From: Paracyclopina nana
Lineage: Eukaryota > Arthropoda > Copepoda > Cyclopoida > Cyclopettidae
Assembly: GCA_019096065.1 (NCBI GenBank)
Contig: JAGUCH010000002.1
Span: 3,050,501-3,114,500, forward strand
Length of the DNA: 64,000 nucleotides
Direction: 5' to 3'
Part shown: positions 50,801 to 56,800 of the stretch, piece by piece
Layout: every line of letters starts with the position of its first letter
Position numbering within the stretch: position 1 is the stretch's first letter
Translations under genes and position numbers: made by a program
Notes under the pieces: generated by a model
What the model was told of the DNA's origin: nothing
Database searches by the model: none
What the model saw: only the letters and a program-made list of their open reading frames with translations

Positions 50801-53800
50801 GCAGGTATCAAATACAAGCAAAACTTAGATTTATAACCTTTATTTTTACTTTCGTGCTACAACTCTACAAAATTGAGACATTGCTTTTTTTCACAAATAA
50901 GTGGCCAATTTTTTATTGCTTATTGCAACACTGGTCCCATGGGATCGCCGAAACACCAAAGATTTTCTCTCTGCGTGGCCGGAAAGTCTCTCAAAATCTA
51001 GTTTTTTTCCAGTCTTTCCAACCACCATTTCACGATTTATTTATTCTTCTGATTTAATATTTTTCGGCAAATTGTCGCGCGTTAGTAGCGAAGCAGTGTG
51101 ACGTCACTCAGTTGCATCAGCTACATGCCTGGATGCGCGCAGAATTCAAAACAAGACGAAAAGTGAGCCGAATTTCCGGAGAAAAACAGACTGTGATTCT
51201 GGAAAAGACATGCCACAATTCTCGTAAAACGGCGTAATAAGGAGCCATGGAAACACGCAGAATTCTGGTGCGAAAGAGGCCACGATTCCTGAGAAAAAAA
51301 TGCCAAACTGCCGGAATAAGGAGCCCAGAATGGAGCCGAGATTGCCACGGAAAACAAGCCATGAAAAATTGGCTCACACGGAAAGAAAAAGGGACCAAAT
51401 TGCTAGATGCCAAACGCCAAGAAAAAAGGTGAGGTTTCACAGATTTCTTTGCTTGAAATATAAAAAAAGACGTTTTCAGTGCCTGCTCTATGGAGTATAG
51501 TGAAAAAGCGAAACCTCCATCTTCATTAGGAGGCGTGGCCGGGCATCACTGCAAACCCTTGGACAAGTTCTCCAGACATCAGCCGACAATGTGGAGGCCT
51601 AGGATATTTTATGGGCCACGCCCTCGGCTTCACAGGCATACCTCAACTCGCCTGCTACTCCTTGGTGCAAAGTGGAAACGCGAGACCTCCATATTCATTA
51701 ACAATAAGTGAGCACATAACATGCAATTCAAAACTGAGCCTTTTTATACTTATTTTCGTATTCCAGGCCTGCCTTAGCTCCAGGATGTTCAAGAGGACAA
51801 GTACATGACGTTCAGGATCAGGCTGAAGAACTTACATCATTAACAATAAGTAAGCATATAACATGCAATTCAAAATTGAGCCTTTTTATACTTATTTTCG
51901 TATTCCAGGCCTGCCTTAGCTCCAGGATGATCAAGAGGACAAGTACATGACGTTCAGGATCAGGCTGAAGAACTCACATCATTAACAATAAGTAAGCACA
52001 TAACATGCAATTCAAAACTGAGCCTTTTTATGCTTATTTTCGTATTCCAGGCCTGCCTTAGCTCCAGGATGATCAAGAGGACAAGTACATGACGTTCAGG
52101 ATCAGGCTGAAGAACTCACATCATTAACAATAAGTAAGCACATAACATGCAATTCAAAATTGAGCCTTTTTATGCTTATTTTCGTCTTCCAGGCCTGCCT
52201 TAGCTCCAGGATGATCAAGAGGACAAGTACATGACGTTCAGGATCAGGCTGAAGAACTTACATCATTAACAATAAGTGAGCACATAACATGCAATTCAAA
52301 ACTGAGCCTTTTTATACTTATTTTCGTATTCCAGGCCTGCCTTAGCTCCAGGATGTTCAAGAGGACAAGTACATGACGTTCAGGATCAGGCTGAAGAACT
52401 TACATCATTAACAATAAGTAAGCATATAACATGCAATTCAAAATTGAGCCTTTTTATGCTTATTTTCGTATTCCAGGCCTGCCTCAGCTCCAGGATGATC
52501 AAGAGGACAAGTACATGACGTTCAGGATCAGGCTGAAGAACTTACATCATTAACAATAAGTAAGCACATAACATGCAATTCAAAATTGAGCCTTTTTATG
52601 CTTATTTTCGTATTCCAGGCCTGCCTTAGCTCCAGGATGTTCAAGAGGACAAGTACATGACGTTCAGGATCAGGCTGAAGAACTTACATCATTAACAATA
52701 AGTAAGCACATAACATGCAATTCAAAATTGAGCCTTTTTATGCTTATTTCGTATTCCAGGCCTGCCTTAGCTCCAGGATGTTCAAGAGGACAAGTACATG
52801 ACGTTCAGGATCAGGCTGAAGAACTTACATCATTAACAATAAGTAAGCACATAACATGCAATTCAAAACTGAGCCTTTTTATGCTTATTTTCGTATTCCA
52901 GGCCTGCCTTAGCTCCAGGATGTTCAAGAGGACAAGTACATGACGTTCAGGATCAGGCTGAAGAACTCACATCATTAACAATAAGTAAGCACATAACATG
53001 CAATTCAAAATTGAGCCTTTTTATGCTTATTTCGTATTCCAGGCCTGCCTTAGCTCCAGGATGTTCAAGAGGACAAGTACATGACGTTCAGGATCAGGCT
53101 GAAGAACTTACATCATTAACAATAAGTAAGCACATAACATGCAATTCAAAACTGAGCCTTTTTATACTTATTTTCGTATTCCAGGCCTGCCTTAGCTCCA
53201 GGATGATCAAGAGGACAAGTACATGACGTTCAGGATCAGGCTGAAGAACTTACATCATTAACAATAAGTGAGCACATAACATGCAATTCAAAACTGAGCC
53301 TTTTTATACTTATTTTCGTATTCCAGGCCTGCCTTAGCTCCAGGATGTTCAAGAGGACAAGTACATGACGTTCAGGATCAGGCTGAAGAACTTACATCAT
53401 TAACAATAAGTAAGCATATAACATGCAATTCAAAATTGAGCCTTTTTATGCTTATTTTCGTATTCCAGGCCTGCCTCAGCTCCAGGATGATCAAGAGGAC
53501 AAGTACATGACGTTCAGGATCAGGCTGAAGAACTTACATCATTAACAATAAGTAAGCACATAACATGCAATTCAAAATTGAGCCTTTTTATACTTATTTT
53601 CGTATTCCAGGCCTGCCTTAGCTCCAGGATGTTCAAGAGGACAAGTACATGACGTTCAGGATCAGGCTGAAGAACTCACATCATTAACAATAAGTAAGCA
53701 CATAACATGCAATTCAAAATTGAGCCTTTTTATGCTTATTTTCGTATTCCAGGCCTGCCTCAGCTCCAGGATGATCAAGAGGACAAGTACATGACGTTCA

Positions 53801-56800
53801 GGATCAGGCTGAAGAACTTACATCATTAACAATAAGTAAGCACATAACATGCAATTCAAAATTGAGCCTTTTTATACTTATTTTCGTATTCCAGGCCTGC
53901 CTTAGCTCCAGGATGTTCAAGAGGACAAGTACATGACGTTCAGGATCAGGCTGAAGAACTCACATCATTAACAATAAGTAAGCACATAACATGCAATTCA
54001 AAATTGAGCCTTTTTATGCTTATTTTCGTATTCCAGGCCTGCCTTAGCTCCAGGATGTTCAAGAGGACAAGTACATGACGTTCAGGATCAGGCTGAAGAA
54101 CTTACATCATTAACAATAAGTAAGCACATAACATGCAATTCAAAATTGAGCCTTTTTATACTTATTTTTGTATTCCAGGCCTGCCTTAGCTCCAGGATGT
54201 TCAAGAGGACAAGTACATGACGTTCAGGATCAGGCTGAAGAACTCACATCATTAACAATAAGTAAGCACATAACATGCAATTCAAAATTGAGCCTTTTTA
54301 TGCTTATTTTCGTATTCCAGGCCTGCCTTAGCTCCAGGATGTTCAAGAGGACAAGTACATGACGTTCAGGATCAGGCTGAAGAACTTACATCATTAACAA
54401 TAAGTAAGCACATAACATGCAATTCAAAATTGAGCCTTTTTATACTTATTTTCGTATTCCAGGCCTGCCTTAGCTCCAGGATGTTCAAGAGGACAAGTAA
54501 ATGACGTTCAGGATCAGGCTGAAGAACTTACATCATTAACAATAAGTAAGCACATAACATGCAATTCAAAATTGAGCCTTTTTATGCTTATTTTCGTCTT
54601 CCAGGCCTGCCTTAGCTCCAGGATGTTCAAGAGGACAAGTACATGACGTTCAGGATCAGGCTGAAGAACTTACATCATTAACAATAAGTAAGCACATAAC
54701 ATGCAATTCAAAATTGAGCCTTTTTATACTTATTTTTGTATTCCAGGCCTGCCTTAGCTCCAGGATGTTCAAGAGGACAAGTACATGACGTTCAGGATCA
54801 GGCTGAAGAACTTACATCATTAACAATAAGTAAGCACATAACATGCAATTCAAAATTGAGCCTTTTTATACTTATTTTTGTATTCCAGGCCTGCCTTAGC
54901 TCCAGGATGTTCAAGAGGACAAGTACATGACGTTCAGGATCAGGCTGAAGAACTCACATCATTAACAATAAGTAAGCACATAACATGCAATTCAAAATTG
55001 AGCCTTTTTATGCTTATTTTCGTATTCCAGGCCTGCCTTAGCTCCAGGATGTTCAAGAGGACAAGTACATGACGTTCAGGATCAGGCTGAAGAACTTACA
55101 TCATTAACAATAAGTAAGCACATAACATGCAATTCAAAATTGAGCCTTTTTATGCTTATTTTCGTATTCCAGGCCTGCCTTAGCTCCAGGATGTTCAAGA
55201 GGACAAGTACATGACGTTCAGGATCAGGCTGAAGAACTTACATCATTAACAATAAGTAAGCACATAACATGCAATTCAAAACTGAGCCTTTTTATGCTTA
55301 TTTTCGTATTCCAGGCCTGCCTTAGCTCCAGGATGTTCAAGAGGACAAGTACATGACGTTCAGGATCAGGCTGAAGAACTCACATCATTAACAATAAGTA
55401 AGCACATAACATGCAATTCAAAATTGAGCCTTTTTATGCTTATTTCGTATTCCAGGCCTGCCTTAGCTCCAGGATGTTCAAGAGGACAAGTACATGACGT
55501 TCAGGATCAGGCTGAAGAACTTACATCATTAACAATAAGTAAGCACATAACATGCAATTCAAAACTGAGCCTTTTTATACTTATTTTCGTATTCCAGGCC
55601 TGCCTTAGCTCCAGGATGATCAAGAGGACAAGTACATGACGTTCAGGATCAGGCTGAAGAACTTACATCATTAACAATAAGTGAGCACATAACATGCAAT
55701 TCAAAACTGAGCCTTTTTATACTTATTTTCGTATTCCAGGCCTGCCTTAGCTCCAGGATGTTCAAGAGGACAAGTACATGACGTTCAGGATCAGGCTGAA
55801 GAACTTACATCATTAACAATAAGTAAGCATATAACATGCAATTCAAAATTGAGCCTTTTTATGCTTATTTTCGTATTCCAGGCCTGCCTCAGCTCCAGGA
55901 TGATCAAGAGGACAAGTACATGACGTTCAGGATCAGGCTGAAGAACTTACATCATTAACAATAAGTAAGCACATAACATGCAATTCAAAATTGAGCCTTT
56001 TTATACTTATTTTCGTATTCCAGGCCTGCCTTAGCTCCAGGATGTTCAAGAGGACAAGTACATGACGTTCAGGATCAGGCTGAAGAACTCACATCATTAA
56101 CAATAAGTAAGCACATAACATGCAATTCAAAATTGAGCCTTTTTATGCTTATTTTCGTATTCCAGGCCTGCCTCAGCTCCAGGATGATCAAGAGGACAAG
56201 TACATGACGTTCAGGATCAGGCTGAAGAACTTACATCATTAACAATAAGTAAGCACATAACATGCAATTCAAAATTGAGCCTTTTTATACTTATTTTCGT
56301 ATTCCAGGCCTGCCTTAGCTCCAGGATGTTCAAGAGGACAAGTAAATGACGTTCAGGATCAGGCTGAAGAACTTACATCATTAACAATAAGTAAGCACAT
56401 AACATGCAATTCAAAATTGAGCCTTTTTATGCTTATTTTCGTCTTCCAGGCCTGCCTTAGCTCCAGGATGATCAAGAGGACAAGTAAATGACGTTCAGGA
56501 TCAGGCTGAAGAACTTACATCATTAACAATAAGTAAGCACATAACATGCAATTCAAAATTGAGCCTTTTTATGCTTATTTTCGTATTCCAGGCCTGCCTC
56601 AGCTCCAGGATGATCAAGAGGACAAGTACATGACGTTCAGGATCAGGCTGAAGAACTTACATCATTAACAATAAGTAAGCACATAACATGCAATTCAAAA
56701 TTGAGCCTTTTTATACTTATTTTCGTATTCCAGGCCTGCCTCAGCTCCAGGATGTTCACGAGGACAAGTACAGGACTAGATTGGATCAATTTTGTACTAT

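Follow-up and report, generated by a model that had tools for sequence, protein, structure and literature searches.

We analysed a stretch of 64,000 nucleotides of the copepod Paracyclopina nana (hereafter the window; positions 3050501–3114500 of contig C2 in a 92-Mb genome of 10 contigs), which contains a tandem array whose 142-bp unit reads as a complete intron plus an exon of 83 nt. The array is probably a satellite seeded by a transposon: a by-product, now probably neutral, of a low-copy DNA element that we call transposon A and that itself is or was spliced. Dispersed copies of transposon A carry the satellite unit internally, as a short array, and the long array adjoins sequence of the element, the 3′ part of which lies at 57520–58000. 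The main parts of the array, all on the plus strand, are as follows.

51695..56776, plus strand: 142-bp tandem array, 36 introns and 35 internal 83-nt exons (Tandem Repeats Finder (TRF) and unit-by-unit reading)
51708..51766, plus strand: first complete intron, GTGAGC...TTCCAG (sequence reading)
51767..51849, plus strand: first internal 83-nt exon, the type unit of the array (sequence reading)
56675..56733, plus strand: last complete intron of the array (sequence reading)

The 142-bp array and its splice signals

Run on the window, TRF gave a period of 142 bp, 35.8 copies and 97% matches, and reading of the units bore out the original prediction, made from the letters alone, of 36 head-to-tail intron-plus-exon units. 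With a slash at the splice junction, donors read AATAA/GT[AG]AGCA and acceptors TTCCAG/GCCTGCC in 36 of 36 units, and every GT and AG is intact. The 36 complete introns measure 59 nt (33 cases) or 58 nt (3 cases), and all 35 exons bounded by two introns are 83 nt long. This intron size is normal for the genome, as had been proposed, because eight introns of the neighbouring TRPA-like, otopetrin and ASC genes (read by eye, with predicted boundaries) span 50–64 nt. A strict scan of donor–acceptor distances over both strands of the window found no pair at 45–75 nt, and each of two controls gave two such pairs; the scan says little about intron size, because donors here are frequently weak or GC.

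Intact splice sites amid other variation had been taken as a pointer to function. The sites are indeed kept while other positions vary, but only 11 of 142 columns do so across the 35 whole units (4 exonic, 7 intronic), and all four GT/AG positions would escape variation by chance with a probability of 0.72, so their integrity within the array is uninformative. The comparison suggested at the outset, of GT/AG positions with the rest of the unit over the 36 copies, yielded no demonstrable excess and cannot work within this array, whose copies are far from independent. The 35 units comprise only 17 distinct sequences, and units 25–32 are letter-identical to units 8–15, which implies at least one block duplication. 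Scans of the window with Rfam (gathering threshold) and for tRNAs gave no match, and neither did a BLAST search of 56400–57200 against phages. A literature search, limited in its coverage, found no satellite with an intron-plus-exon unit.

Transposon A and its modules

A genome search with about two array units recovered the array itself and, with eight copies, seven loci elsewhere (numbered L009 to L015); genome searches scored best candidates only, and copy counts throughout are lower bounds. Outside the window the unit matches are pieces of 75–86% identity, and two of the copies lie in tandem in L013. The seven loci align with each other over long stretches beyond their arrays. Five copies (L009, L010, L011, L012 and the first in L013) are complete, with both terminal repeats, and are 2.3–3.2 kb long. 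Each end is a terminal inverted repeat of 26 bp, reading CAGCATGGT[CT]CTCTGATATTGCACAC on one side and the reverse complement on the other, with up to four mismatches allowed. A TA dinucleotide stands outside 14 of the 14 terminal repeats read, a count that includes two duplicate right ends in L013, and the TA may itself be part of the repeat. Genome-wide, the terminal repeat has 14 matches at up to three mismatches and its reversed control none, and the genome holds at least seven left ends (one without its first 7 bases) and at least eight right ends.

The copies on contigs C8 and C5 share 99.1% identity over 2550 bp and 99.7% over 884 bp (overlapping alignments). This near-identity stops no more than 3 bp from the terminal repeats, beyond which the two copies have different flanks: transposon A is a mobile element that moved recently. 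Judged by its structure, transposon A is a low-copy DNA transposon with terminal inverted repeats, flanked by TA as in the Tc1/mariner/pogo type and at most non-autonomous.

All intron-plus-exon modules of transposon A share one orientation, and two or three different array types occur within a single copy. The left end is free of modules. Next comes an array of ~159-bp modules with a 102-nt exon and the signals TTAG/GTAAT...TTTCAG/GTCTCTTG; L013 additionally holds a ~150-bp type with a GC donor, as read by eye. Window-type modules (141–142 bp, exon 83 nt) number up to four in other copies, against 36 in the window, and are followed by a last exon-like stretch with AATAAA and then by single diverged modules. 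In all 9 loci examined, which are homologous, the AATAAA lies 115–185 nt beyond the point where the last array exon starts, and it may act as a functional polyadenylation site.

Single modules retain a pyrimidine-rich acceptor and read TTTTTCAG/G, about ten bases and then a 27-nt core, CTCCAGGATGTTCAAGAAGACAAGTAC; they were picked at up to six mismatches to this core, which inflates its conservation. Acceptor-like sequence precedes 16 of 21 cores outside the array class. Only two of these 21, L013 2975 and L014 4429, have a donor of the form GT[AG]AG or GTATG no farther than 70 nt away, and each of the two is in fact the first unit of an array. Single modules thus have a donor in 0 of 19 cases, or in 1 of 19 if GC donors are allowed, against a background of 12% of windows. 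The words shared around the exon core suggest that all module types descend from one ancestor. The ~159-bp type also occurs in two further loci, L072 (contig C1), with eight matches of which some are shortened to 139 bp, and L073 (contig C2). One more place with this type lies near 2622k on contig C7.

We hypothesize that transposon A was once transcribed and spliced through its modules, as their normal intron size and the polyadenylation-like signal would suggest. The module may have been acquired with a gene that the element captured or already possessed, and then multiplied by unequal exchange or slippage, before one immobile copy expanded into the array of 36 units. That array would now be neutral; if it is transcribed, splicing is predicted to produce runs of 83-nt exons that carry no message. 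The original prediction had named tandem duplication of one exon–intron segment as the simplest origin: the unit did spread in tandem, but it belongs to a dispersed transposon with terminal inverted repeats, and a host gene segment as its source is unsupported.

A left end of transposon A also occurs in L047 (C7:2629500–2639400), where frames resembling a BEL/Pao long terminal repeat (LTR) retrotransposon follow within ~500 bp. An array of ~159-bp modules is found ~15 kb further on, so that a copy of transposon A may have been split by this putative retrotransposon.

Conservation across diverged copies

The comparison for the 142-bp type used 10 units drawn from 7 loci. L010 supplied three units, L013 two, and L012, L014 and L015 one each; L009 was represented by one of its three whole units and the window by its majority unit. 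The near-identical L011 and the second copy in L013 were excluded. Identity between loci is lower in the exon (0.744) than in the intron (0.779), and 49 of 142 positions are invariant, including all four of GT and AG. Acceptor positions −8 to −1 reach an identity of 0.975, compared with only 0.729 for donor positions +1 to +6. For the ~159-bp type, seven loci were searched and six of them, all but L073, yielded 26 units. Every one of these retains AG, and 25 have GT or GC at the donor, the remaining one reading GA; exon identity is 0.778 against 0.745 for the intron.

A working multi-exon gene would keep its exons better than its introns and preserve its frame, and the 142-bp type does not behave in this way. 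Its 83-nt exon, not a multiple of three, shifts the frame at every junction and has stops in two of three frames, which, with the poorer conservation of exon than of intron, speaks against a coding version of the many-exon RNA envisaged originally. In young copies the ~159-bp exon is 102 nt long and phase-symmetric, with two open frames. We considered it as coding sequence and found this unsupported: its codon positions are conserved alike (0.786, 0.763 and 0.784), and for the LLTES frame the ratio of nonsynonymous to synonymous differences (pN/pS) comes to 1.08 (7 exons, 4 loci). Frame-breaking indels or stops occur in L012, L013, L014 and L072, and three joined exon translations matched no Pfam family above the cut-off.

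Several results weigh against the array being a neutral by-product of a transposon. Invariance of GT and AG in the 142-bp type has p = 0.013 against four random positions, and splice-site retention in the ~159-bp type has p = 0.011 with GC scored as a miss; both p values are post hoc, units of the same locus are related and the neighbours of the splice sites are also conserved. In the second open frame of the ~159-bp exon, pN/pS is 0.68 (7 exons, 4 loci). Within the 27-nt core, variation is greatest at the third codon position (0.969, 0.931 and 0.899), as in coding sequence, a lean that vanishes when 21 further bases are included (0.771, 0.742 and 0.742). The modules in L072 and L073 stand without a recognised terminal repeat. 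No transposase family scored above its cut-off in 19 of 22 open reading frames of at least 75 amino acids from L009, L010, L012, L013 and L014, the other three being repeats of those in the first L013 copy; a profile search of the transposon A frames returned three weak matches, all below cut-offs, and the only DDE_1 match in the genome lies away from transposon A.

Taken together, these data give scant indication of a protein and show splice sites retained somewhat more often than expected under pure neutrality, which hints that transposon A was spliced in the past or is spliced at present. GT and AG being kept slightly above average across diverged copies leaves room for the non-coding spliced RNA or splicing decoy that had been raised originally. 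We regard it as unlikely, though not negligibly so, that transposon A carries a selected spliced non-coding RNA gene, with the small exons as its product, and that the window array is an amplified version predicted to be spliced still. The splice dinucleotides retained in two module types, the strongly conserved acceptor, the acceptor-like sequence before most non-array cores and the regular position of AATAAA all favour such a gene. Against it, window-type exons are no better kept than introns, the six donor positions fall below the intron average and single modules lack donors.

Very improbable, by our estimate, is that a host exon and intron were duplicated in tandem in place and the transposon copies gained the unit later. 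Tandem exon duplication is common in genes, LPA kringle IV-2 being a case, and L072 and L073 show that modules can stand without recognised ends; however, the modules of both loci are decayed and frame-broken, with no intact gene, the window copy is itself bordered by repeat pieces, and among best candidates all 142-bp-type matches outside the window fall in L009–L015, five complete transposon copies included. That the array encodes a repetitive protein is the least credible reading of all: the phase-symmetric 102-nt exon, its lower pN/pS in one frame and the variable third position of the core are outweighed by the out-of-frame window exon, the broken frames, the pN/pS of the LLTES frame and the lack of a Pfam match.

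The window locus and its wider setting

Around the array, the locus comprises the following pieces.

50849..51694, plus strand: fragment of repeat family B, ending in ~1.3 copies of a 173-bp repeat that abut the 142-bp array (74–93% matches to L055, L057, L066 and L067)
56734..56854, plus strand: terminal exon-like stretch, with the exon start and 27-nt core, then diverged, and AATAAA at 56849–56854 (sequence reading)
57174..57515, no strand assigned: inserted ~335-bp high-copy repeat (at least 39 other copies scored)
57520..57556, plus strand: short transposon A remnant that matches sequence 3′ of the exon core (sequence match)
57873..58000, plus strand: 3′ part of transposon A, terminal repeat missing (77–80% to L009, L010, L012, L015 and L048; also L011)

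From this arrangement of repeats, the locus is a broken, chimeric copy of transposon A, joined on its left to family B, in which the array grew. Family B has ~500-bp inverted ends in L066 and internal 172–173-bp tandem repeats in L055, L057 and L067, and its junction with the array falls in TCATTA, a word common to both families. No left end of transposon A was found in 49500–51720, where the sole match is of 50513–50708 to positions 143–341 of L072 (74%), left of the L072 module array and outside the part that L072 has in common with L009. Inverted repeats in 49500–60500 amount to 14 weak pairs of 18–37 nt, none of which matches the transposon A ends. On the right, the main match to transposon A ends at 58000, 310–360 bp short of the element end; matches of 19–24 bp at 57984–58007 suggest that the piece reaches, through an internal gap, to ~160 bp before that end.

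Nesting of transposon A inside family B was considered and is unsupported, with no family B sequence in 56776–60500 against the six B loci tried. The ~335-bp insertion, which by appearance we guess to be like a miniature inverted-repeat transposable element, has other copies of 81–85% identity on all ten contigs (best 40 of 255 candidates scored).

Other repeats lie nearby or are related to these pieces. The stretch at 50513–50708 is a piece of a further dispersed repeat, and a 14-bp repeat, AAGGTGGATTGACC, occurs in 5.6 copies at 56897–56974, shortly 3′ of the array. The ~172-bp repeats of family B form a ~7.4-kb run of matches at C9:662823–670209, with smaller arrays on C1, C3, C5 and C9.

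Elsewhere, the window carries TRPA-like, otopetrin, ASC and bHLH genes, and two of the eight introns read by eye are of GC-AG type (23279–23336 and 24368–24430). On the minus strand, 1270–3747 holds an open frame of 825 residues, rich in PYxPTP repeats, with DNA periods of 21 and 63 bp and no Pfam match at 0.001. A 19-bp minisatellite at 31284–32020 has several open frames, on both strands.

Several known systems share part of this organization. LPA kringle IV-2 is a repeat of variable copy number whose tandem unit likewise contains exons and introns, but each such unit spans kilobases, stays in frame and belongs to a working gene, whereas the unit of the window array measures 142 bp, is out of frame and lies in a transposon. 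Introner elements are mobile DNA with splice sites, as is transposon A, and bring one intron per insertion into genes; the intron of transposon A instead lies inside the element and recurs in tandem together with an exon. Helentron/DINE-1 elements also carry tandem repeats inside a mobile element, but transposon A has inverted ends with TA flanks and not rolling-circle ends.

Tetris of Drosophila virilis is a DNA transposon of the non-autonomous kind that contains tandem repeats, has few complete copies and no transposase found, and from whose internal repeats the longer satellite-like arrays of TIR-220 derive (PMC4079207). The Tetris repeats lie within the inverted ends, target duplications are 8–10 bp and the authors suggest the Mutator superfamily (PMC4079207). 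Transposon A resembles Tetris in its internal repeats, few complete copies, lack of a recognised transposase and long derived array, and differs in its 26-bp ends with TA, its central repeats in one direction and its unit of intron plus exon.

Satellites that arise from transposon interiors are already known; in this one each unit consists of a normal-sized intron and an exon, and its probable source element carries several such module types. The array is a natural test of how the splicing machinery faces dozens of near-identical consecutive introns, and such a run of spliceable units could mislead gene annotation. A bolder idea, to which we give only a small chance, is that transposon A represents a class of DNA transposons built of self-contained intron-plus-exon modules, in which selection acting on the element maintains the splice signals, perhaps for a many-exon RNA or a splicing sink, and which sheds satellites that are spliceable unit by unit. 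If the splice sites of the element are indeed selected, this would be a new mode of transposon organization.

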